The notes under the pieces: generated by a model | What the model saw: only the letters and a program-made list of their open reading frames with translations | Database searches by the model: none | What the model was told of the DNA's origin: nothing | Position numbers and translations under genes: made by a program | From: Methanofollis ethanolicus | GTDB lineage: Archaea > Halobacteriota > Methanomicrobia > Methanomicrobiales > Methanofollaceae | NCBI RefSeq assembly: GCF_001571385.1 | Contig: NZ_BCNW01000001.1 | Location: forward strand, 744,001-808,000 | Length of the DNA stretch: 64,000 nucleotides | Direction: 5' to 3' | Shown here: positions 21,930-33,742 of the stretch, one piece after another | How positions within the stretch are numbered: position 1 is the stretch's first letter | How the letters are laid out: every line of letters begins with the position of its first letter

Positions 21930-22763
21930 ATGACACGAACGCACTTTGCCGTAGAACGCCTCGCATTCCATCCTGATAGCCTGCCCGACTGCCCGCACTG
22001 CTGGCTTCTCGTCCGGGGAGGGGATGTGCTCTGCCGTGAGGACGGGTCGCCCATCCTTTCGTCCCTGCCCGACGGCATCGACCCTCTGGGTGCGGTCCCT
22101 CTCGGTGCCCTCGACGGCGTGTCCTTCTCTGCTCTCGGGACAGAGGCCGTCCCCACCCCTTTCAGGCCGATCCCCCTGCGCGACCTCTTCGGTCGCGTGG
22201 ACGGGGAGACCCTCGCCATCGCGGGGAGGGCCGTGCACCTCGTCCGCTTCGACGAGGAGAACCGTTTCTGCGGCAGGTGCGGGGGGCCGACCGTCTGGAA
22301 GGAGGACGAGGTGGCGAAGGTCTGCACGCGGTGTGGCGGCGTCGTCTACCCCCCGGTGACCCCTGCCGTGATCGTCCTGATCAGGAGGGGCCGGGATATT
22401 CTCTTCGTGCGTTCGCCCCGCTTCCCTCCCGGACGCTACTCCCTCGTCGCCGGCTTCGTCGAACCAGGCGAGACCCTCGAGCACGCCGCGGCGCGGGAGG
22501 TCGCCGAGGAGACGGGCGTCTCCATCGAAGGCCTCCGCTATGCCGGGAGCCAGCCCTGGCCCTTCCCCCACTCCCTGATGGCCGGTTTCTTCGCCGAGTA
22601 TGCAGGCGGCGAGGTGCGGCCCGACGGCGTGGAGACCGAGGAGGTGCGGTGGTTCTCCCCCGACGCCCTGCCCGACCTCCCCGGCAAAATGAGCATTGCG
22701 TGGGCCCTGATCGAGAGGCACCTCAGGGACGACTCCCCTGATCCCCCCGACCCGCGTGGGTGA
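21930..22763 (+). CDS. nudC: NudC-type NADH pyrophosphatase
   Basis: This is a 277-residue Nudix hydrolase that cleaves NADH to NMNH and AMP; bacterial NudC also removes NAD caps from RNA. It shows an N-terminal NudC domain, a C-x2-C...C-x2-C zinc ribbon (F-C-G-R-C near 114 and C-T-R-C-G near 131), the Nudix box G-F-V-E-P-G-E-T-L-E-H-A ... E-V-A-E-E-T-G (near 178-200) and the diagnostic S-Q-P-W-P-F-P near 208. ATG 21930 fits the family N-terminus; a TATA-like stretch lies about 30 bases upstream. Confidence 0.9.
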   Translation: MTRTHFAVERLAFHPDSLPDCPHCWLLVRGGDVLCREDGSPILSSLPDGIDPLGAVPLGALDGVSFSALGTEAVPTPFRPIPLRDLFGRVDGETLAIAGRAVHLVRFDEENRFCGRCGGPTVWKEDEVAKVCTRCGGVVYPPVTPAVIVLIRRGRDILFVRSPRFPPGRYSLVAGFVEPGETLEHAAAREVAEETGVSIEGLRYAGSQPWPFPHSLMAGFFAEYAGGEVRPDGVETEEVRWFSPDALPDLPGKMSIAWALIERHLRDDSPDPPDPRG

Positions 22764-22833
22764 CTATAATTTTCTCGAAGACCGATCTGATCTAGGGAAC
22801 AGCTCCGGACCCGTATTTTTATGGTGCACCACA

Positions 22834-25800
22834 ATGACCGATTCAGTAGTTGACAGTATCCTTGCGGCCCGTTACCTCCGCAAGGGCGAAAAAAACTTCG
22901 ACGACATCTGCCGGCGGGTGGCGACCGCACTCGCCCGTGACGATGCCGAGAAGGAAGAGTATTATGACGCCATGCGCTCCCTCTCCTTCCTCCCGAACTC
23001 CCCCACCCTGATGAACGCCGGCACCGAACTCGGCCAGCTCTCGGCCTGCTTCACCCTCCATGTCGGCGACTCGATCCCCGAGATCTTCCATGCCCTGGAA
23101 TGGGGGGCCCTCATCCACAAGAGCGGCGGCGGCACAGGCTACAACTTCTCCCATATCCGCCCGGAGGGCGCGCCCGTCCAGTCCACGGACGGCGTCGCCT
23201 CCGGCCCCATCTCCTTCATGAAGGTCTTCAACGCCGCCACCGACGTGATCAAGCAGGGCGGCCGCAGGCGCGGGGCCAACATGGGCATCCTCAATGTCTG
23301 GCACCCCGACATCCTGCGCTTCATCCACGCGAAGAACGTCGAGGGCGAACTCTCGAACTTCAACATCTCGGTGATGGTCAATGACCGGTTCATGGAGTTC
23401 GTCGAGTCCGGACAGCTCCAGAAGGTCTGGCTCACCCACCCGTACACCGGCGAGGAGATCACGGTCGGCGCCATCTGGAACGGCATTGTCGACGGTATCT
23501 GGCGGAACGGCGAGCCCGGCGTCCTCTTCTACGACGAGATCAACAGGGAGAACCCGACACCGCAGCTCGGGCCCATCGACACCACAAACCCCTGCGTCAC
23601 CGCGGACACCTGGGTCATGACCGCGGAAGGGCCCAGGCAGGTGCGTGACCTGGTCGGCCGCCGTTTCGACGCCGTCATCTGTGGTGTCGCCGTCCCCTCA
23701 GGGTCAGACGGTTTCTTCCCGACCGGGACAAAGGAGGTGCTCTGTCTCCGTACCCGGGAGGGCTACCGCCTGCGGCTCACGGCCGACCACCCTGTTCGCC
23801 GGGTCTCCTCCCTCACCAGGTATAGCATGGCGAGCGAGTGGGTCAGGGCTGGCGACCTTGCCCAGGGAGACCGCGTCCTCCTCCACGACCACCACACTCT
23901 TGCCGGATGGGAGGGCGCCCTCACCGAAGAGCAGGGCTATCTCCTCGGTCTGCTTGTCGGCGACGGCACGCTGAAAGCAGATGCCGCCGTCCTTTCTGTC
24001 TGGACAGGCGCCGGCGCCCGGTCGGTCATGGCCCATGCCGAGACCTGTGCCGGAACCCTCGATCACCGCTCCGACTTCTCCGGTTGGTTCCCGGTGGAGG
24101 GACGGGACGAGTTCAGGCTCAAACGTGCGGCGGTCCGCGACCTTGCCACGGCGATGGGGATGGCGCCCCGCGCGAAGGTCATCACCCCTGCGATCGAGCA
24201 GGCCTCCTCGGCCGGGTATCGCGGTTTTCTCGCCGGCCTCTTCGATGCCGACGGCTCGGTGCAGGGCACACCCGCGAAGGGCGTCAGCGTCAGGCTCTCC
24301 CAGAGCAGTCGCCCGGTCCTTCTCGCAGCCCAGCGGATGCTCCTCCGCCTCGGCATCAGGAGTACGATCTACCGGCGCCGCCCCGCAGGCCTCAGTCTCC
24401 TCCCTGACGGTCGCGGCGGTGCGAGGCCGTACAGGGTGCGGCAGCAGTACGACCTTGTCGTCAGCGGGGAGAACCTCCTGACTTTCCGTGACCGCGTCGG
24501 GTTCAGGGGCGAAGAGAAGGCCGGGAAACTCGACGACCTCCTCTCGTCGTATTCCCGGAGCCTGAAGAGGGAGCGCTTTGTTGCGACCGTGGCGTCGGTC
24601 GTCCCGGACGGCACTGAAGAGGTCTATGACGTCCAGGTACCTGGTGCGAACACTTTCGACGCGAACGGGTTTGTGGCTCACAACTGCGGTGAACAGCCGC
24701 TCCTCCCCTTCGAGTCCTGCGTGCTCGGGTCCATCAACCTGGCGAAGTTTGTCAGGGACGGCGCCATTGACGAAGAAGCACTGAAGGGGATCACCCGCAT
24801 GGCCGTCCGGTTTCTGGACGCGGTCATCGACAGGAATGTCTTCCCGATCCCGCAGATCGAGGAGGCGACGAGAAAGACGAGGAAGGTCGGCCTCGGCCTG
24901 ATGGGCGTCCACGACGCCCTGCTGATGCTTGGCCTGCCGTACGACTCCGACGAGGGCCGGGCCGTCTGCGACCGGGTGATGGACCTCATGACCAGGACCG
25001 CGGTCGAGGAGTCGCACGCCCTCGCCGCGGAGAAGGGCACCTTCCCGGCCTTCGAGGGGAGCATCTGGGACGAGTATGCGATGCGGAACGCCGCGCTCAC
25101 CACGATCGCCCCCACTGGCACCATCTCCCTCCTGGCCGGGTGTTCCTCAGGGATCGAGCCCGTCTTCTCCTATGCCTACACCCGGAAGAACACCGTGGGC
25201 AAGACCTTCGTGATGCTCCACCCGCTCTTCGAGGCCGAACTGCGGCGGGTCGTCGGTGGTATGGGCCTCGCCCCCGAGGAGACGGAGAGCAGGGTCAGAG
25301 AGGTGATCGACCACGTCCACGAGGCCGGTACGATCCGGGACGTCGCCTGGCTCCCGGCGTCCTTCAGGCACCTCTTCAGGACTGCCATCGACATCGACTG
25401 GCGCGACCATGTGCGGATGCAGGCGGTCTTCCAGCAGCATGTCCACGCCTCCATCTCGAAGACGATCAATATGCCCAATGCCGCGACCCGCGAGGAGATC
25501 GCGGAGGCCGTCCTCATGGCCTGGAAGAGCCACCTCAAGGGCATGACCATCTACCGGACAGGCAGCCGCGAGGACGTTGTTCTGGCGCTCAAGGAGAAGA
25601 AGCCGGCCGCCGAACCCGGGCCTGTGCCTGAACAGAAGGCGGCCCGCCCGAAGGAACTCTCCGGCAAGACCTATCTCTGCCAGTCAGGCTGCTGCCGGCT
25701 GTACATCACCGTCAACCTCATGGACGGGAAACCCTGGGAGGTCTTTATCAGGACGGTCGGGAGCGGCGGCTGCGAGGCGAACTCCAATGCCCTTGGCCGG

Positions 25801-26106
25801 GCGATCTCCACCGGCCTCCAGAATGGCGTGCCGTACCAGAAGTTCGTGCGGCAGTTTGCGAAGGTAAACTGCATTGTCGCCCTCAAGAACCCCGTGGCCG
25901 AGGGTCTCTCCTGCGCTGACGTCGTCGGTAAGTGTATCGACCTCGCGGCCTCGAAGCAGACGATCACCACCCTCGACACCTGGAAGATCGCCGACGTCAC
26001 CGGCACGAAGAAGAACCTCTGCCCGGAGTGCGGGGCTGAACTCGACTTCGGCGAGGGCTGCAATCAGGGGATCTGCAAGAACTGCGGCTGGAGCGGCTGC
26101 AGTTAA
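22834..26106 (+). CDS. nrdJ: Class II (adenosylcobalamin-dependent) ribonucleotide reductase with intein
   Basis: The 1,090-residue precursor yields a mature protein of 726 residues once the 364-residue intein is removed. It reduces ribonucleotides to deoxyribonucleotides using B12. Visible features are the N-terminal active-site Cys (Q-L-S-A-C-F-T-L), S-G-G-G-T-G near 95, the radical loop N-P / C-G-E-Q split by the intein, and P-T-G-T-I-S near 770. The C-terminal TSCPD-like domain has many cysteines (C-Q-S-G-C-C), followed by a C-terminal zinc ribbon (C-P-E-C ... C-K-N-C-G-W). Class II enzymes work without oxygen, fitting an anaerobe. ATG 22834 is preferred since the upstream frame is non-coding and GGTG precedes it. 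Confidence 0.93.
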   Translation: MTDSVVDSILAARYLRKGEKNFDDICRRVATALARDDAEKEEYYDAMRSLSFLPNSPTLMNAGTELGQLSACFTLHVGDSIPEIFHALEWGALIHKSGGGTGYNFSHIRPEGAPVQSTDGVASGPISFMKVFNAATDVIKQGGRRRGANMGILNVWHPDILRFIHAKNVEGELSNFNISVMVNDRFMEFVESGQLQKVWLTHPYTGEEITVGAIWNGIVDGIWRNGEPGVLFYDEINRENPTPQLGPIDTTNPCVTADTWVMTAEGPRQVRDLVGRRFDAVICGVAVPSGSDGFFPTGTKEVLCLRTREGYRLRLTADHPVRRVSSLTRYSMASEWVRAGDLAQGDRVLLHDHHTLAGWEGALTEEQGYLLGLLVGDGTLKADAAVLSVWTGAGARSVMAHAETCAGTLDHRSDFSGWFPVEGRDEFRLKRAAVRDLATAMGMAPRAKVITPAIEQASSAGYRGFLAGLFDADGSVQGTPAKGVSVRLSQSSRPVLLAAQRMLLRLGIRSTIYRRRPAGLSLLPDGRGGARPYRVRQQYDLVVSGENLLTFRDRVGFRGEEKAGKLDDLLSSYSRSLKRERFVATVASVVPDGTEEVYDVQVPGANTFDANGFVAHNCGEQPLLPFESCVLGSINLAKFVRDGAIDEEALKGITRMAVRFLDAVIDRNVFPIPQIEEATRKTRKVGLGLMGVHDALLMLGLPYDSDEGRAVCDRVMDLMTRTAVEESHALAAEKGTFPAFEGSIWDEYAMRNAALTTIAPTGTISLLAGCSSGIEPVFSYAYTRKNTVGKTFVMLHPLFEAELRRVVGGMGLAPEETESRVREVIDHVHEAGTIRDVAWLPASFRHLFRTAIDIDWRDHVRMQAVFQQHVHASISKTINMPNAATREEIAEAVLMAWKSHLKGMTIYRTGSREDVVLALKEKKPAAEPGPVPEQKAARPKELSGKTYLCQSGCCRLYITVNLMDGKPWEVFIRTVGSGGCEANSNALGRAISTGLQNGVPYQKFVRQFAKVNCIVALKNPVAEGLSCADVVGKCIDLAASKQTITTLDTWKIADVTGTKKNLCPECGAELDFGEGCNQGICKNCGWSGCS
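23593..24684 (+). mobile_element. LAGLIDADG-type intein in nrdJ
   Basis: An in-frame 364-residue intein begins at Cys (C-V-T-A-D-T-W), has the splicing T-A-D-H motif in block B, and ends V-A-H-N before the +1 Cys of C-G-E-Q. Two homing endonuclease dodecapeptides are intact, L-L-G-L-L-V-G-D-G and F-L-A-G-L-F-D-A-D-G, each keeping its catalytic Asp, so both splicing and homing activity look possible. The insertion point is between N-P and the thiyl-radical cysteine, so the downstream extein nucleophile is the enzyme's own catalytic residue. Confidence 0.92.
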
Positions 26107-26176
26107 ATCCCTTTTTTTGCCGCGCACGATACCAACCCTTATATACCCTGTCCGTCTACTTTCAGCCGGGAGTTTT

Positions 26177-26443
26177 ATGGCCGGGCAGAATACTATCGGT
26201 GCTGTTGCCGTTACATCAGGGGACAAAATAAAGTACGTCGTCCTTGACCAGCCTCTTTTCGAACTGCTGGCCCAGATCAGGTCTGCGCCCGATAGCGAGT
26301 GGGAGCATGACCTCTGCCGCTGTCTCCGGGCTGCCGATTTCGGGTCGTCTGTCGTGCACGTCGAAGACGAGCGCCTGGAACCCCTCTTTGCGGCGCTGGA
26401 AAGGTACCTTGCGGCCGCAGCGCCCGAACGCCCCTCGCCCTGA
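26177..26443 (+). CDS. Small hypothetical protein
   Basis: This 88-residue soluble protein is mainly alpha/beta, with no signal peptide or membrane helix and no family I can name. A gggag site precedes its ATG by six bases. It begins about 70 bases after nrdJ, with a T-run (26110-26116) in between that may end the nrdJ transcript. It is convergent with trkH, and the two stops are eight bases apart. Confidence 0.6.
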   Translation: MAGQNTIGAVAVTSGDKIKYVVLDQPLFELLAQIRSAPDSEWEHDLCRCLRAADFGSSVVHVEDERLEPLFAALERYLAAAAPERPSP

Positions 26444-26451
26444 CCCTTTCC

Positions 26452-27915
26452 TCAGTCGAACCCCCTTACCGCCCCGACGGCGAGGACGATCACCGGCACC
26501 ATCTCCAGCCGTCCGAACCACATCAGGAAGATGAAGAGCCATTTCGAGACCGGACTGATCTCGGGGTTTGCAAAGCCGGTGGAAAGCCCCACATTGCACA
26601 TCGCCGAGACGGCCTCGAAGATGACGTCTGCCACCTCGAAAGGTCCGGCGGCCTGGAGGTGGAGGAGGATGAGGCTTGCAAGAAAACCGGTGAAGATGAA
26701 GAGGAAGATGGTGAGCATCGTCTTTGCCACCGCGAACTCGGCGACCCTGTGAGGTATGATCCGGCCCTCATACCGGAAGGGCACGATCGCCCTGCTCGAG
26801 TGAAAGATACGCCTGAACCACCAGACAAGGCCGTCGAAACCGGTGATGATCCGCCCGATCTTCATCCCGCCCGAGGTGCTCCCGGAGGAACCGCCGATGA
26901 GCATCAGCAGGGTAATGAAAAGGACAGTCGCCCCTGTCCATTCGAAGGGGTTTGCGTTCTGGAAACCGGTGCAGGTGATGGCGCTCGTCACCATGAAGAG
27001 GGACTGGCGGAGGGCCGTCGGGATGTCGAGGAGGTTCTTCGTCACCAGGTCGAAGGCCGTGACCAGGGTGCCGGTGGCGACGAGGAGGAAGAGCACCCGC
27101 GCCTGCGGGTCTTTCAGGATGTGGACCCGCCGGTGGCTGTGGATCATCAGGTAGTAGAGCTTGAAGGGGAGAGCGCCGGCGAGCATCACCGGGACGACGA
27201 GCATTTCGAGGAGGACATTGTTGTAGTAACTGATACCCGCGGTGTGGACGGAGAAGCCGCCTGTGGCGAGGGAGGTCATGGCGATGTTGACGGCGTCCCA
27301 GAGGGAGACCCCGGAGAGGAGGATGAGAGCGGTCGAGAGTGCCGTGATCAGGATGTAGATCTGCCACATGTTCGCCGCCGTCGCCACGACGCCCGGCATC
27401 AGGGACTCAGACCTCCCTTCGTACCTGTACAGCCCTCTCTGGAGGGTGCCCGACCGCCGGGAGAGGGCGACGGTGAAGGCGACGATCCCGATGCCGCCGA
27501 GCCACTGCATGAAGGACCGCCAGAAGAGGAGGGTCTTTGGCGTCTTGTCCACGTCGGTGATGAGGGTGAGGCCGGTGTCGGTCCATCCCGACATGGCCTC
27601 GAAGACGCTGTCGGTGAAGGGCATGTGGTGGCCGACCATGAAGGGAAAGGCGCCGATGAGGGCGCAGACGAACCATATGCAGGCGACGGCGGCGATGGCC
27701 ACCGAGAGGTGCGCCTCCCCTTGCGGTGCCTGCAGGGGCGAGAGCAGGCCACCGATGATGAAAAATGCGAGGGGTGCGGTCGCCATCGCGGGGAGGAGGC
27801 TCCATTCGCGGTATATGACCCCGACGAGGAGGGGCGTGAGGCAGACGAGACCGATCAGGAGGAAGATCCTGCCCATGTCCGGGAGGATCGTCGCGATCTG
27901 GTCCCTGCCGCGCAT
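26452..27915 (-). CDS. trkH: TrkH-family potassium uptake membrane subunit
   Basis: This is a 487-residue polytopic membrane protein of the Trk/Ktr superfamily of K+ translocating subunits. It shows repeated M-P-M pore motifs, with selectivity-type glycines in S-x-x-T-G-G/G-W-T-D-T-G and L-A-T-G-G-F-S segments, W-L-G-G-I-G-I-V near 138, and G-S-T-S-G-G-M-K near 340. Such subunits work with a cytosolic RCK (TrkA) protein; none is next to this gene, but an RCK-DHH protein is encoded at 41451. Start alternatives are ATG 27915 (preceded by GGGAGGG) and ATG 27873. Confidence 0.9.
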   Translation of the reverse strand: MRGRDQIATILPDMGRIFLLIGLVCLTPLLVGVIYREWSLLPAMATAPLAFFIIGGLLSPLQAPQGEAHLSVAIAAVACIWFVCALIGAFPFMVGHHMPFTDSVFEAMSGWTDTGLTLITDVDKTPKTLLFWRSFMQWLGGIGIVAFTVALSRRSGTLQRGLYRYEGRSESLMPGVVATAANMWQIYILITALSTALILLSGVSLWDAVNIAMTSLATGGFSVHTAGISYYNNVLLEMLVVPVMLAGALPFKLYYLMIHSHRRVHILKDPQARVLFLLVATGTLVTAFDLVTKNLLDIPTALRQSLFMVTSAITCTGFQNANPFEWTGATVLFITLLMLIGGSSGSTSGGMKIGRIITGFDGLVWWFRRIFHSSRAIVPFRYEGRIIPHRVAEFAVAKTMLTIFLFIFTGFLASLILLHLQAAGPFEVADVIFEAVSAMCNVGLSTGFANPEISPVSKWLFIFLMWFGRLEMVPVIVLAVGAVRGFD

Positions 27916-28117
27916 GGTACCCGCTTCCCTCCCTGTTTTTTCATCAACTTTCCGGTGAAGATGATCGCCGCGGTGAAGGAATACGACGGCGAATCCCCGC
28001 GCCAGAATTCGTCCGGATGATATCTATGAAAAACGAAAAGAAAGAGATCAACACGTTCCGCTTCGTGAAATTGCCACAACCTGTCATTGGATGAGGAACG
28101 AGTCTATATTTTACAAT

Positions 28118-28467
28118 GAGGTCATCCCAAAACTGATCCGAACCTTCATGCACGCCGACGAAAGGACTCACATTCGGTTCTGAAAAATCCTGTTCTTGCG
28201 TTTTGTCCGGGGGGTTTCACCCCCCGATCCCCCCATCATTGCGAGAGGGGGTGGAGGGCAATCTCCTTCATCAGGATCTCTCTTCCCCGACCCTATCCTG
28301 TTTCGGGGGTCCGGGGGCATCAGTCCCCCGGCAGAGAGGTAGGGGAAGACAGGGGTTTCGCACGATTCTTCAGGGAATTCAGGAAGATATCGACCAGAAC
28401 ATGATATTCTCTCCCGATCCCTGCATGCAGAGATGGGGGGAATGAACGAGAGTTTTGGGATATGTTC
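28118..28467. repeat. Family B MITE-like element (copy B2)
   Basis: A 350-bp ORF-less repeat. The ends are GAGGTCATCCCAAAACT (28118-28134) and AGTTTTGGGATATGTTC (28451-28467), an inverted repeat with a perfect 11-base core, ATCCCAAAACT. AAT lies directly outside both ends (28115-28117 and 28468-28470). It is oriented opposite to B1 and B3 and shares with them the core blocks gggggtccgggggc, ctctcttccccgaccctatcctg and ccgatccccccatcattgcg. It lies between trkH and the RavA/ViaA-like pair. Confidence 0.72.
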
Positions 28468-28679
28468 AATGTATTTCCGATACGAGTTGTATTGAACTAC
28501 AGAGTGAATCAATTCAACCCAAAAAACAATGAGGTCAGGCAAAGGTACGGAGTGAGCATCTTAAAAAACGGTTTTCATTTCTCAAAAGGGCTTCAAATCA
28601 CAATAAGTGTCCCTTTTTTGTTAAAGTGATTAATGCCATATTATATGAAATCGGAATGTTTATTATTTTTAATTTTAAT
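28468..28679 (+). promoter_or_regulatory. AT-rich upstream region of the RavA-like gene
   Basis: About 210 bases with very low GC. Candidate TATA boxes include atattatat (28637-28645) and tttattattttt, within 45 bases of the ATG at 28680. A T-run (28614-28619) precedes them. No ORF is apparent. Confidence 0.4.
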
Positions 28680-30083
28680 ATGAAATACGCGATGGCCATA
28701 AGAGAAAATCTTTCGGCAATTCAGTCCTCTTTCCAGTCTATTTTTAAGGAGCGGGACGATGAAATCCGGGGAGCGCTCCTTGGAATAGTATCCGGAGAAC
28801 ATGTTCTCTTCCTCGGGCCACCGGGAACAGCCAAAACATACCTGGCCTACACCATCTGCAAGTCGATCGAGGGGGGCACATTCTATTATTATCTGCTCAC
28901 TCGCTTTACAACGCCCGATGAAATATTCGGCCCTCTTTCGCTGAAAGCCCTCGAACAGGATGAATTCCGGCGTAATATTGACGGATACCTGCCGACTGCG
29001 CATATCGCCCTTCTCGACGAAATCTTCAAGGCAAACAGTTCCATCCTCAACAGCCTTCTGACCATCCTGAACGAGCGAAAGTTCCACAACGGGAAAAATA
29101 TTCTGGATGTCCCGCTGCTCTCGGTCTTTGGTGCATCAAATGAACTCCCGGAAGAGGATGAAAATCTCGAAGCCCTGTATGATCGTTTCCTGTTCCGGTA
29201 CTCTATCGACTACATTCAGGATGAAAAGAACTTTTTCGAATACCTCACCGGAAGCAGCGACGGCTTTACGCCCTCCACAACACTGTCGGTCCAGGATATC
29301 AATGCCATCCGGAAGAAAGCGCAAGAATTACCTGTTGACCCGGACGTCCTGGACAGCATTTTAGCGCTCCGGAAGGAGTTGTGGTCCATGGATATTCACA
29401 TTTCAGACCGTCGGTGGAAGAAGATCCTTCATGTACTGAAAGTCGCGGCCGCAGCAAATGGTGATGCGAGCGTCAACCGCACAATGCTCCCTCTGCTCCA
29501 GCATATGCTCTGGATAGTTCCCGATCAACGAGAGCAGATCAGGAAACGTATTCTGGACGTGGCCGTTTCCGGTGGAATAGACACGTACCAACTGGGTGGC
29601 GAGGTGAGCGACTTCGACAAAATAAGTCGGTCCGTCCAGTATTCATATGATCCGGGTCAGAAACTTCCTCAGGTCGTGACGTGTAAAAATTGCAATGATA
29701 CATTCGGCACAGTCTGGGACCTGATCAGTCATAGCGAAAAGAATCCGTCTCATAAGTATTATACAAATTCAAATTGGCAAACGTATAATGCGACTGACAC
29801 ACTCAGGTCGCTCGGAATGAAACCAAACACTATTGACCACTCTAAATATAAAATGCTGATTCGTGAATATAACGAAATTTTGGAGAAAAAGAATAGATTA
29901 AAGCAGTCATTGGACTCTGAAACGGAAGATCTGAAGAACCATCTCAATCAAAATATCTGGATCTCTCGCAGAGACGTCGATGAAATTCTCCTCAGGTACG
30001 AAGAGAAGATCAGGGATCTTTACACAATAGAAGAAAAGATGGCAAATATCGAGAAGAGTATTGAATATCGACATAAATCCTGA
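28680..30083 (+). CDS. RavA-like MoxR AAA+ ATPase with internal C2H2-type zinc finger
   Basis: This is a 467-residue AAA+ ATPase closely patterned on bacterial RavA (MoxR family). It has Walker A G-P-P-G-T-A-K-T near 45-52, L-T-R-F-T-T-P-D-E-I-F-G-P-L-S near 77, Walker B I-A-L-L-D-E near 108, sensor G-A-S-N-E-L-P near 150, and L-Y-D-R-F-L-F-R near 168. RavA-type proteins partner a VWA protein (ViaA) in chaperone-like remodelling. The C-terminal third differs: a C-K-N-C ... H ... H motif near 335-358 looks like a zinc finger, and a long coiled coil (about 395-465) follows. Codon use and GC are clearly lower than in neighbours, suggesting transfer. ATG 28692 is an alternative start. Confidence 0.85.
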   Translation: MKYAMAIRENLSAIQSSFQSIFKERDDEIRGALLGIVSGEHVLFLGPPGTAKTYLAYTICKSIEGGTFYYYLLTRFTTPDEIFGPLSLKALEQDEFRRNIDGYLPTAHIALLDEIFKANSSILNSLLTILNERKFHNGKNILDVPLLSVFGASNELPEEDENLEALYDRFLFRYSIDYIQDEKNFFEYLTGSSDGFTPSTTLSVQDINAIRKKAQELPVDPDVLDSILALRKELWSMDIHISDRRWKKILHVLKVAAAANGDASVNRTMLPLLQHMLWIVPDQREQIRKRILDVAVSGGIDTYQLGGEVSDFDKISRSVQYSYDPGQKLPQVVTCKNCNDTFGTVWDLISHSEKNPSHKYYTNSNWQTYNATDTLRSLGMKPNTIDHSKYKMLIREYNEILEKKNRLKQSLDSETEDLKNHLNQNIWISRRDVDEILLRYEEKIRDLYTIEEKMANIEKSIEYRHKS

Positions 30084-30157
30084 ACATTTTTCCACGCAGA
30101 TCCATCTGCAGCATTATTGAAAGTGCGACATAAAACCCTCAAGAAAGCGTGAATAGA

Positions 30158-32245
30158 ATGGATGAGCATTCGATATCTGGAATGGGGTCCCCCTACGAGT
30201 TGAACCGGCTATCACAGATCGTGAAGGGCGATCTGAATCCTATCATTTCGGTTCCCCGTACCATCCCGCGTCGGGTTCGTGAAGATATCGCGGAAATATG
30301 TGTATCAGAACTTATCCTGGGGGATCATTACGAGATCCGGGATGCCCGTCGCTTCATAGAGAAGTTTGGCGTGTTTTACCCTCTATACCTGAACCTTAAA
30401 TGGAACCGCGCCTGGTCGGATCTTCGGAACCTTGCCGAGAAAAGCCCTGTTGCAGGCATTCAGGCACTGAAAGTTCTCCTCAAAAAGATATTTGACATCA
30501 TCGACTCTTTCTCACAACAGTCTCTGCACCTCAAAGACTCAACCGACTCATCATTGCAGGAGGCGCTGAACGAACTTTCCAGGATCATTGAGCAGACGCG
30601 GCGGGTCTGGGAGAACCCGGAACAGGAAGGAGATCGCGATCTCCCGCAGGATGCAGAAACAGGTCCGAATCTCACACCGCAGTTTGAAGATCTCTCCGGC
30701 GATCTCAAAGTGTTGCAGAGTACTTCCGACCCTCAGGTGTTACACAATTTCCTGAATGATGCCTTCCAGGCCGGACAGGATCTGCAGGATTTTATTCGGG
30801 TAGAATCTGCAAGGGCACCGTCACCTGATGAAGATACAGACATCAATGTCCTGTCGTACTATGCAGAGCAGTTTGCTCAGGAATATTTCCGTCTTCTTGA
30901 AACCACTTCGGTGGGGGAAGAGCGGTCTCCTTCAGATGATGATGGAACTGAGGAAACTGCCGAAGAAAAGTTATCCGGGCCGACTCTGGACGCAGGCGAT
31001 GAAAGTGCTTCTACAAGTATTCGTCCGGTCAGAGAGGCAGGTCAGACGCAGTTCTCTGATAACGACCTGCCCATATTTTCGCCATCAGAAGAAATGCAGA
31101 CAGACATTCTGGACGATCTCGATAATACCATCTCCGGGATTATTCTGGCACTGAAATCCGGATCAAAAGACGCTTCCGATTCAGACAACCCGCAAGAAGA
31201 ACTGGTCGGAGGAGTTCTGAAGTTTATGGAAAAACCAGAGTCCAATGAGATCATCCAGACAATTCTCCGACACCAGTTAAACCCTGCAATGGACCTGGTT
31301 TTATCCACTTTGTGGAAGAACCTCGACGTTCTTGAGATACTCGTCCAGCTCTTCCCTGGCAGGCAGTGGGATTACTCATTGAAGGATCTTCACAGGAATT
31401 ATCTCGAAAATCTTGAGCACTATGCAAAGATTGCAGAAAATAGCGAGACGCTCAAAGAAATCGTTGAGCAACTCGGGCGCATTGAGATGGAGTACGGGTC
31501 GAGGAAGATATCTGTTTCCTCTCACGGAAAGACGGAGATGCATTCCATCACTTATTCCTCAGATCTTGACCATCTTCTTCCTACTGAAGCGGTAAAACTT
31601 CAAAACCCGACCCTGAAACTCAAATTTGCTGCAGACCTCGCGGAAAAAAAGCTTCTGACCTATCAGTTGCGGGGGAAGAACTGGGTCGGGGGCTCCCTGT
31701 CGACCAGAAAAAGGGGGCCTGTTGTGGCGCTGGTCGACACATCAAAGTCGATGCGCGGTTCACCCGAGACGATAGCAAAAGCCACGATCCTGGCCATTGC
31801 CCGGAGGATGCTGAAAGAAGAGAGGGACGTGAAAGTAATTCTCTTTTCATCACGGAATCAGCTGGATACGATAGACCTTACAGGTACGAAGAGGATGGCC
31901 CGGGAGTTTCTTGAATTCCTCAATCAAACATTCGGTGGAGGCACGGATTTTAACACCGCCCTGAAGGCGGGAATGCAGTCCCTGAAAGAGCCACAGTTCC
32001 GGAGCGCTGATCTTCTCTTTATCACCGACGGAGGCTCGAAAATCTCGAATGAAGCACTTCTCGATGGGTGGAGCTCCCTGAAAAAAGAGCAGGATGCGCG
32101 GATTTTCTCGATGATCATAGGCAGGACGACTGCAGGGGGTCTTGAACAGGTATCGGATGAGACCTATCTTATGCAAAAGGCTGACACCTGGAGTCCGGGC
32201 AACAGCCCTGCTCATCTGATACGACATATCACGATGAGATCCTGA
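30158..32245 (+). CDS. ViaA-like VWA-domain protein, partner of the RavA-like ATPase
   Basis: This is a 695-residue soluble protein. The C-terminal 180 residues form a von Willebrand A domain with a complete metal site: D-T-S-K-S (D about 527), G-G-G-T-D and F-I-T-D-G. The central part (about 150-330) is acidic and low in complexity; the N-terminal part is helical. Domain layout and gene order (AAA+ then VWA) match E. coli RavA-ViaA, but this protein is about 200 residues longer than ViaA. It lies 74 bases after the ATPase gene, presumably in one operon. ATG 30158 is preferred to the GTG three codons upstream. Confidence 0.82.
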   Translation: MDEHSISGMGSPYELNRLSQIVKGDLNPIISVPRTIPRRVREDIAEICVSELILGDHYEIRDARRFIEKFGVFYPLYLNLKWNRAWSDLRNLAEKSPVAGIQALKVLLKKIFDIIDSFSQQSLHLKDSTDSSLQEALNELSRIIEQTRRVWENPEQEGDRDLPQDAETGPNLTPQFEDLSGDLKVLQSTSDPQVLHNFLNDAFQAGQDLQDFIRVESARAPSPDEDTDINVLSYYAEQFAQEYFRLLETTSVGEERSPSDDDGTEETAEEKLSGPTLDAGDESASTSIRPVREAGQTQFSDNDLPIFSPSEEMQTDILDDLDNTISGIILALKSGSKDASDSDNPQEELVGGVLKFMEKPESNEIIQTILRHQLNPAMDLVLSTLWKNLDVLEILVQLFPGRQWDYSLKDLHRNYLENLEHYAKIAENSETLKEIVEQLGRIEMEYGSRKISVSSHGKTEMHSITYSSDLDHLLPTEAVKLQNPTLKLKFAADLAEKKLLTYQLRGKNWVGGSLSTRKRGPVVALVDTSKSMRGSPETIAKATILAIARRMLKEERDVKVILFSSRNQLDTIDLTGTKRMAREFLEFLNQTFGGGTDFNTALKAGMQSLKEPQFRSADLLFITDGGSKISNEALLDGWSSLKKEQDARIFSMIIGRTTAGGLEQVSDETYLMQKADTWSPGNSPAHLIRHITMRS

Positions 32246-32348
32246 AGACAGAGGAAAGGGTCTTCGTAATTCTCCGGGGCACCATGTTACGAACGACCGT
32301 GACACCTGATCACTCAAAAAATGATTCGTACAGCGGATTTCCACGCGG

Positions 32349-32399
32349 CCGAGAAAGAGCAGAGATTTCTCGGTCTGGCAGGCACCCCTGGCATGCCTG
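32349..32399. terminator. Two hairpins between convergent genes
   Basis: CCGAGAAA / TTTCTCGG (32349-32356 / 32366-32373) is a perfect eight-base-pair stem. CAGGCA / TGCCTG (32379-32384 / 32394-32399) follows. They lie between the ViaA-like gene and the convergent radical SAM gene, so a two-way terminator is likely. Confidence 0.4.
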
Positions 32400-32425
32400 A
32401 CCCGATGTGATCTCTCCACTCCTGA

Positions 32426-33742
32426 TTATTCTCGTCCTCCCCCGTCGTACCTCTCGATCAGCGCGGTCACCCGCCGCACGTCCTCCCCCTGCTTCCGCGC
32501 CTCCGCCAGGTAGAGGCTGAAGACCTCGTCGGTGACCACGTGGAGGAGGGGTTTGTACATATCGGCGTGCTGGGAGAGGTCGAACCACCGCGCCTCCGCC
32601 TCGGTGAGGTGGAGGGAGCGGTACTCCCCTTCGTGGGGCGTGAAGACCGGGTTCTTCTCATGCGGCGTCCGCAGCACGAGGTCTGCGAGGGGCGTGCGGG
32701 GGATCGGTTCGGCGACCGAGATGAAGACGTCGTCGAGCATCTCCGCGGCGATGAACTCCTTCGTGGCCTCGTAGTCCTCCGCGGTCTCGGTTGGGTAACC
32801 GACAATGAAGCACCCGGCGACCTTCAGGCCGTGCTGGCGGGACTGCTCCACGGCGTCGTGCATCTGCGCGACGGTCACCCCCTTGCCCATATGCCTGAGG
32901 ATACGGTCGCTCCCCGACTCGAAGCCGAAGAAGAGCCAGCCGATGGTGTACTTCTGGATCGCCTCCAGGATCTCGTCGGTGATCGCGTCCACCCTGATGT
33001 CGGGTGCCGAGACATTCCTTGGCCCGAGTTCCCCGGCGAGCATCTCCAGGAGGGCGATGACGGCGTCGTCGTCGATCGCGCCGTCATAGCCGTACAGGGA
33101 CCCGGTGCCGCCGGAGACAGAGAGTCTCTTCGCCCCTTTCTCCCGGAAGGTCCGCACCTCTTCCCTGATCTCGTCGAGGCTGCGACTCCGGATATCGCGG
33201 CCGAAGAAACGGGGCACCTGGCAGAAGGTGCAGGCCCCTGTGCAGCCGCGGTGTGTCTCGATATAGGCATTCGCGCCCCTGATGGACTGCTGCCCGATGG
33301 CGTCCGGGATCAGGGGGAGGGGCCTCCTCTCCACCGGCGCCTTCGGTGCCGGGGAGGTGACCACGGTCTTTTCCCCGTCGAAATAAGCGATGCCCGGGAG
33401 GTCGGGGTGTATCCCCACGTCGAGGAGGCGGGGCACCGTTATCTCGCCCTCGCCGACGACCACCGCGTCGGGGGCGAGTTCGCCGAGGACGTATTCCGGG
33501 TACGCCGAGACAGGGCCGCCGATATAGACGGGCCTTCCCGAGGCCCTGACGCCGGCGACGAACGCCTTCATCTCGGGGTCCATCAGGTGCTGGGTCGAGT
33601 ACAGGGAGAGGAGGACGGCCTCTGCGTCCCCGGCCGCGAGCGCGGTGGAGAGGGCGACCTCGTGCCCGGCCTCCCGCGCAACCCCGCCGATGAGCATGGC
33701 GCCGTAGGTGGCGATCCCCGGCGAAATGACCACGGTCTTCAT
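32426..33742 (-). CDS. B12-binding radical SAM protein
   Basis: This is a 438-residue protein with an N-terminal cobalamin-binding-like Rossmann region (1-110, I-G-G-P-V-S-A-Y-P near 74) and a radical SAM domain with C-T-G-A-C-T-F-C (Cys-x3-Cys-x2-Cys, near 168-175) for the 4Fe-4S cluster. G-F-E-S-G-S-D and G-Y-P-T-E-T follow as family motifs. It resembles the archaeal B12/radical SAM families conserved in methanogens. The reaction is not known; methyl transfer is a common role for this architecture. Confidence 0.85.
   Translation of the reverse strand: MKTVVISPGIATYGAMLIGGVAREAGHEVALSTALAAGDAEAVLLSLYSTQHLMDPEMKAFVAGVRASGRPVYIGGPVSAYPEYVLGELAPDAVVVGEGEITVPRLLDVGIHPDLPGIAYFDGEKTVVTSPAPKAPVERRPLPLIPDAIGQQSIRGANAYIETHRGCTGACTFCQVPRFFGRDIRSRSLDEIREEVRTFREKGAKRLSVSGGTGSLYGYDGAIDDDAVIALLEMLAGELGPRNVSAPDIRVDAITDEILEAIQKYTIGWLFFGFESGSDRILRHMGKGVTVAQMHDAVEQSRQHGLKVAGCFIVGYPTETAEDYEATKEFIAAEMLDDVFISVAEPIPRTPLADLVLRTPHEKNPVFTPHEGEYRSLHLTEAEARWFDLSQHADMYKPLLHVVTDEVFSLYLAEARKQGEDVRRVTALIERYDGGGRE

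Follow-up and report, generated by a model that had tools for sequence, protein, structure and literature searches.

A stretch of 64,000 nucleotides from Methanofollis ethanolicus (contig NZ_BCNW01000001.1, positions 744,001 to 808,000; this whole stretch is the window) contains adjacent genes for a MoxR AAA+ ATPase and a protein with a von Willebrand factor A (VWA) domain, which represent a conserved variant of the RavA–ViaA system that is equipped with a C2H2-type zinc finger and apparently undescribed in the literature searched. RavA–ViaA itself is known machinery, and its finger form adds no new kind to it. According to excerpts of PMC3893208, MoxR ATPases are believed to act with VWA partners in maturing or remodelling protein complexes, and we put the probability at roughly 0.6 that the pair is a RavA–ViaA-like remodeller that recognises its target through the finger.

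A RavA-type ATPase and a ViaA-like partner

The two genes follow each other on the plus strand with a gap of 74 bases (Table 1). The open reading frame (ORF) of the ATPase spans 28626-30083 with a likely start at 28680 or 28692, and that of the VWA protein spans 30149-32245 with a likely start at 30158. ATPase residues 3-295 match the solved RavA of Escherichia coli (expectation value, E, 9e-60), the MoxR AAA+ core and lid are both recognised (PF20030, E 9.4e-56; PF17868, E 1.2e-15), and the NCBIfam RavA equivalog NF010054 matches with E 6e-67 and 226.8 bits, under its cut-off of 681. A profile of 23 archaeal ATPase rows, from which L066 and the truncated ORFs of L048 and L050 are excluded, aligns with RavA over 294 columns at 39% identity and stops just past the lid. 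Walker A (GPPGTAK), Walker B (LDEIFK) and the motifs SNE, YDRF and SDRRW are invariant in these rows, and ratios of nonsynonymous to synonymous substitution (dN/dS) of 0.06-0.16 in six ATPase pairs indicate purifying selection. Beyond the lid the resemblance changes: in a Pfam scan at E<=1 the window ATPase matches neither the LARA domain (PF20265) nor ATPase_RavA_C (PF12592), and the same holds for all six intact archaeal ATPases scanned together with E. coli RavA, the control, which matches both (E 1e-39 and 1.8e-23). In the motif comparison the ATPase ORFs of L048 and L050 are shortened by an alternative start, as is that of L050 in the Pfam scan.

The VWA protein aligns with ViaA over the VWA domain and the conserved block preceding it (hhalign probability 99.8, E 1.7e-29), and the ViaA equivalog NF008230 matches residues 400-668 only (E 4e-40, 138.4 bits, under the cut-off of 500). 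All five residues of the metal-ion-dependent adhesion site (MIDAS) are invariant in 22 VWA rows, an alignment that excludes L014, L028, L048 and L050. In the N-terminal half there is no ViaA alignment before residue 397, and the C-termini of these VWA proteins show no sign of the Arg-rich, lipid-binding helix found there in E. coli ViaA. Structure prediction was poor for this protein, with a mean predicted local distance difference test score (pLDDT) of 45 and an unreliable N-terminal part. These RavA and ViaA matches and the invariant AAA+ and MIDAS motifs bear out the RavA/ViaA-like pair proposed in an earlier note on this DNA. The long acidic middle that it ascribed to the VWA partner is also real, at 195 residues and a net charge of -35, but it is a linker of variable length, with 7-26 residues in the rows of family f14 (presumably Methanocellaceae) and of copy B in Methanosarcina (which we take to be the genus of G535).

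Table 1 Features of the gene pair and its surroundings, in window positions.
Feature	Position	Strand	Remarks
RavA-type MoxR AAA+ ATPase	28692..30083	+	463 aa; alternative in-frame ATG 28680
C2H2-type zinc finger, residues 331-354, C-x2-C-x3-F-x8-H-x6-H	29682..29753	+	conservation, profile, predicted fold
Helical hairpin, residues 383-462, N-x-W-x4-D turn	29838..30077	+	helices predicted; model aligns structurally with 3nbx
ViaA-like VWA protein	30158..32245	+	695 aa
N-terminal helical domain of VWA protein, residues 1-152	30158..30613	+	matches to about residues 18-153 in archaeal relatives
Acidic low-complexity linker, about residues 153-347, length variable	30614..31198	+
VWA domain, complete MIDAS D527, S529, S531, T596, D624	31715..32173	+
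TrkH-like K+ transporter, divergent from pair, carrier subclade only	26452..27915	-	neighbour, not assigned to unit
350-bp element, imperfect terminal inverted repeats	28118..28467	.	later insertion, not part of unit

A conserved finger ahead of a probable helical arm

The finger follows the lid and a short helix, with C331, C334, H347 and H354 as candidate zinc ligands. The pattern C-x2-C...[FLI]-x8-H-x6-H is kept in all 22 rows of the finger branch, which come from 15 genomes (Methanofollis 4, Methanosarcina copy A 7, copy B 7, family f14 4), and in all seven copy-A rows the second Cys is followed by 23 additional residues. Classical C2H2 fingers follow C-x2-4-C-x3-hydrophobic-x8-H-x3-5-H, a pattern that all 22 rows fit except in the last spacing, x6. 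Of 14 invariant columns in the C-terminal alignment (21 rows, excluding L048 and the finger-less rows), four are the finger ligands, and the N, W and D of the hairpin turn are also among them. The ligands are found in none of four sister-clade rows (G188, G204, G210, G052) and in none of four outgroup rows, namely E. coli RavA and three archaeal rows of a type with another insert at the LARA position.

Fold comparison points the same way. When the finger region was used as a profile against the PDB, the top matches were C2H2 fingers (best PRDM9, E 0.0037), and 53 of the 60 matches listed are zinc-finger proteins by name, most of them aligning at the same profile positions. The AlphaFold model, for which 49 viral relatives entered the alignment (68 of 80 viral loci gave usable ORFs), has the strand-strand-helix layout of a classical C2H2 finger, with strands at 329-330 and 337-338 and a helix at 341-350, at a pLDDT of about 62-64 with only two sequences covering this stretch. 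The finger is predicted to bind zinc. The C-x2-C...H...H finger that the earlier note saw in place of the ATPase C-terminus is more than a loose motif, being a C2H2-type finger that is complete, and its residues are conserved in relatives, on which that note had made the zinc role depend. It is not special to a low-GC island but general in the whole archaeal branch.

After the finger the model forms a two-helix hairpin (383-419 and 426-462). When the model is aligned structurally with crystallised RavA (3nbx), the match extends over model residues 1-461 (Z 36.0, 340 aligned, root-mean-square deviation 11.1), and non-RavA structures among the matches listed align no further than model residue 306. 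The hairpin is probably the counterpart of RavA's triple-helical arm, and the topology of the model suggests a RavA architecture with the finger where E. coli RavA has LARA. Of the suggestion that finger and coiled coil had replaced the ATPase C-terminus, the helices stand, but they probably are RavA's own arm and not a replacement.

Distribution and history

The survey for the finger covered the window's phylum plus phages, plasmids and viral contigs. The VWA protein search found the pair in 4 of 12 Methanofollis genomes (within 61 genomes searched), matched 11 of 232 genomes in the class (eight of this subfamily, one of the LARA-position type in G056, two marginal with E about 7e-4) and 42 of 392 in the phylum. 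The C-terminal profile matched 27 of the 392 genomes, in 25 of which the match includes the finger; in G052 and G057 it covers the helices only. It matches 30/30 Methanosarcina genomes, at least twice in 25 of them (in G348, two of the pieces reported belong to one copy), and 4/4 genomes of family f14. A third pair in L235 (G499), whose ATPase matches from residue 265 on only and whose VWA match is in pieces, is possibly decayed. The finger motif occurs in the tails of none of 80 RavA-type relatives from viral contigs. Among 21 phage records with an ATPase match none covers 80% of the query, and among 79 plasmid records two do; one of these, a RavA-like protein on an Azoarcus plasmid, has no finger. 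At that locus (L201:3998-7740) the RavA-like ATPase and VWA genes are followed by a DUF364 gene and adjoin 2-oxoglutarate dehydrogenase genes.

In the ATPase tree E. coli RavA groups with the three LARA-position rows (100/100), and the finger branch is separate at 100/100. Family f14 lies at the base of that branch, which makes the finger ancestral to it and lost once, in G188, G204, G210 and G052. In the tree of ATPase plus VWA protein the Methanofollis rows form a long branch of their own, placed with other Methanomicrobiales (the finger-less clade) at 87/87; a grouping of Methanofollis with Methanosarcina is not rejected by the approximately unbiased test (p 0.254), and the two other groups together without Methanofollis give p 0.057. 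A recent transfer from a sampled Methanosarcina was discarded in view of this long branch and the weak grouping with other Methanomicrobiales.

The composition of the pair sets it apart from its surroundings in Methanofollis. Its GC content is 0.47-0.50 against 0.62 for the window, and GC at third codon positions (GC3) is 0.55 in both genes against 0.78-0.90 in nine neighbouring genes; all three other carriers likewise show a low value for the pair (0.49 vs 0.62-0.64). At 12 loci examined in other lineages, the pair departs from its surroundings by no more than about 0.09. The carriers are monophyletic (100/100, DNA of the adjacent radical-SAM gene), and the interval between the ribonucleotide reductase and radical-SAM genes (window 26106-32426; L098-L105) is variable in the genus: in G002 it is empty at 226 bp, and G003-G006 hold other sequence there. 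Judged by eye, G004 has a subtilase-like gene in the interval and G003 an NYN-like one; in G005 the other sequence amounts to 8.9 kb. Synonymous divergence (dS) between G000 and G010 is 0.194 for the ATPase and 0.204 for the radical-SAM gene, and from this closeness it follows that the gain predates the split of the carrier species. Most likely the Methanofollis pair was gained once, before the four carriers split, from a source of lower GC. The foreign GC3, the monophyletic carriers and the empty or variable site in non-carriers agree with the acquisition suggested earlier, and the pair is not a core gene set of typical GC in all Methanomicrobiales, the pattern said to speak against acquisition.

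Flanking genes and repeat

ATPase and VWA genes are kept side by side across lineages, with flanking genes that differ from one lineage to another. Neither a propeller nor an effector gene lies beside the pair, nor does any other third gene that is conserved; its window neighbours are the TrkH-like gene and the radical-SAM gene.

The adjacent repeat, which the earlier note took as another sign of acquisition, does not serve as one. At least 41 long copies of the 350-bp element exist genome-wide (40 of 188 candidates were scored), it has diverged matches in other Methanofollis species, its window copy has AAT on both sides, and the pair's site in the carriers G009 and G010 is empty of it. This absence also rules it out as a component of the unit; it was inserted later and is unrelated to the pair.

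The TrkH-like gene is a paralogue confined to the carriers; the sole DNA match in non-carriers, at 68-72%, lies elsewhere. Divergent TrkH genes also adjoin the pair in the Methanosarcina-B loci of G348 and G525, with about 31% identity between the types, and kup adjoins E. coli ravA, again divergently. A functional partnership with TrkH was nevertheless set aside, since the other Methanosarcina-B loci examined have none within the stretch searched and the association may be chance. Upstream of copy A, two conserved genes occur in 7/7 Methanosarcina-like loci examined (e.g. L049:11319-13272), a ThiF/E1-like gene and one for an uncharacterised protein without a Pfam match, with an HExxH motif in L049.

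Nuclease-type genes adjoin some of the relatives. An NYN–LOTUS gene (putative RNA nuclease) lies directly upstream of a finger-less RavA-like gene in two genera (L012:11998-12792, L026:11567-12364) and beside none of the finger-type pairs among the loci examined. An RNase III-domain gene lies directly downstream of LARA-position pairs in L061:8709-9401 and L062:7024-7716. An RNase link was rejected, as this gene is found at 2 of 7 LARA-position pairs and is unmatched in L013, L116, L118, L119 and L120. The ribonucleotide reductase gene of the window (22756-26106) has an apparent intein at about residues 281-643; by tblastn G009 and G005 lack this part, and G010, G002, G004, G006 and G003 have it.

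Function of the pair

By analogy with RavA, the ATPase would form a hexamer that hydrolyses ATP at its subunit interfaces. The VWA protein would dock on this hexamer, its metal site holding an acidic residue of the client protein, and the helical arm would project outwards, bearing a single finger where the E. coli arm bears LARA. In E. coli, RavA's outward contacts are made by the triple-helical domain and LARA (excerpts of the cage structure paper, PMC6987120), and LARA is dispensable for ViaA binding and required for binding of LdcI and phosphatidylglycerol (excerpts of PMC9489729). Because of its position in the chain, the finger would be the docking element for a different client, most likely recognised by protein-protein contact as LdcI is by LARA. 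As neighbourhoods differ between lineages, the neighbours do not name this client. A branch with a conserved finger in exchange for a docking domain points to the arm as a swappable targeting module. The finger, moreover, is a defined, mutable site, through which archaeal MoxR–VWA function becomes directly testable in Methanosarcina. This genus is genetically tractable.

Several observations weigh against such a finger-guided remodeller. Both equivalog cut-offs, for RavA and for ViaA, are missed, and the N-terminal half of the VWA protein is without a ViaA match, though in E. coli it is this half of ViaA that binds RavA (excerpts of PMC9489729). Sequence comparison detects no homology of the ATPase C-terminus to that of E. 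coli RavA or of the archaeal ATPases of the LARA-position type, and the model has pLDDT <50 for 295-328 and most of 355-381, with about 62-64 at the finger. The E-values of the PDB profile matches are marginal, and no Pfam finger model passes, the best for the window row (E 0.033) lying below the cut-off. Four relatives without the ligands still keep the pair, so that the finger is dispensable for core function in places. Finally, the gene tree leaves room for vertical descent, in which case the genus would have lost the pair at least twice.

That the pair works like any other RavA–ViaA, at the membrane or on respiratory complexes, and that the finger only caps the arm structurally, is an unlikely alternative. 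Retention of pair and arm in the finger-less sister clade would fit it, as would the work of E. coli RavA–ViaA at the membrane (excerpts of PMC9489729), but a cap explains poorly why the ligands are invariant in 22/22 branch rows, and the lipid-binding helix of ViaA is the very part not seen here. Binding of nucleic acid by the finger, with the machine recruited to DNA, RNA or ribonucleoproteins, seems quite unlikely. The C2H2 spacing would suit it and DNA-binding fingers such as PRDM9 head the profile matches, but H-x6-H exceeds the usual H-x3-5-H and a lone finger is seldom enough for specific DNA binding. Likewise, the NYN–LOTUS gene (here the putative RNase with its RNA-binding domain) beside the finger-less pairs of G052 and G188 and the RNase III-domain gene beside the LARA-position pairs of G475 and G509 speak for a link to RNA, yet these neighbours occur at two loci each and at none of the finger-type loci examined. 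The more elaborate version, in which the finger was swapped in for the client-docking domain and steers the ATPase to nucleic acid or ribonucleoprotein, the nuclease neighbours of relatives reflecting the same link, is more doubtful again; if true, it would connect the processing of RNA or DNA with MoxR–VWA remodelling. That the pair serves in conflict or defence in the manner of the MoxR-vWA-beta-propeller ternary systems (the earlier note had mentioned conflict systems) is highly improbable: patchiness in Methanomicrobiales at a variable site and the many RavA-type ATPases in viral contigs, phages and plasmids could suggest it, but no PADLOC family scores better than E 0.014, a propeller, effector or other conserved third component is lacking, the pair type occurs in all Methanosarcina (30/30) and f14 (4/4) genomes, and viral relatives without the finger (0/80 with the motif) and strong purifying selection argue the other way. 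A RavA–ViaA-like remodeller that finds its client through the finger is the reading we prefer.

Comparison with known systems

Almost all RavA–ViaA literature found concerns E. coli and Vibrio, and no finger-bearing RavA was found in the titles and abstract openings of the RavA/ViaA, MoxR–VWA and archaeal zinc-finger literature searched. With the MoxR-vWA-beta-propeller ternary systems (excerpts of PMC7159879) the pair has in common a Pfam bpMoxR domain and a VWA partner, but it has no propeller or effector gene, and the bpMoxR match is not discriminating. A conflict role drawn from that Pfam name was rejected, as E. coli RavA matches bpMoxR equally well. RavA-type ATPases of phages and plasmids share the AAA+ core and lid at mostly 31-46% identity; they differ in that most matches stop near residue 290 and that the viral tails are without the finger motif. 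The archaeal LARA-position pairs (G056, G475, G509, G433, G444, G456, G495) share a core of about 35% identity and a VWA partner, whereas in their ATPases a long insert, different in kind, separates the lid from the C-terminal helices, and there is no finger. Compared with E. coli RavA, the window ATPase has a C2H2 finger in the place of the PF20265 and PF12592 matches, and compared with ViaA, the VWA protein has an unmatched N-terminal half, an acidic linker and no Arg-rich tail. What the pair shares with E. coli RavA–ViaA is the AAA+ core with its lid, at 39% identity across 294 columns, an adjacent VWA gene with a homologous C-terminal half, and a predicted helical arm past the lid.

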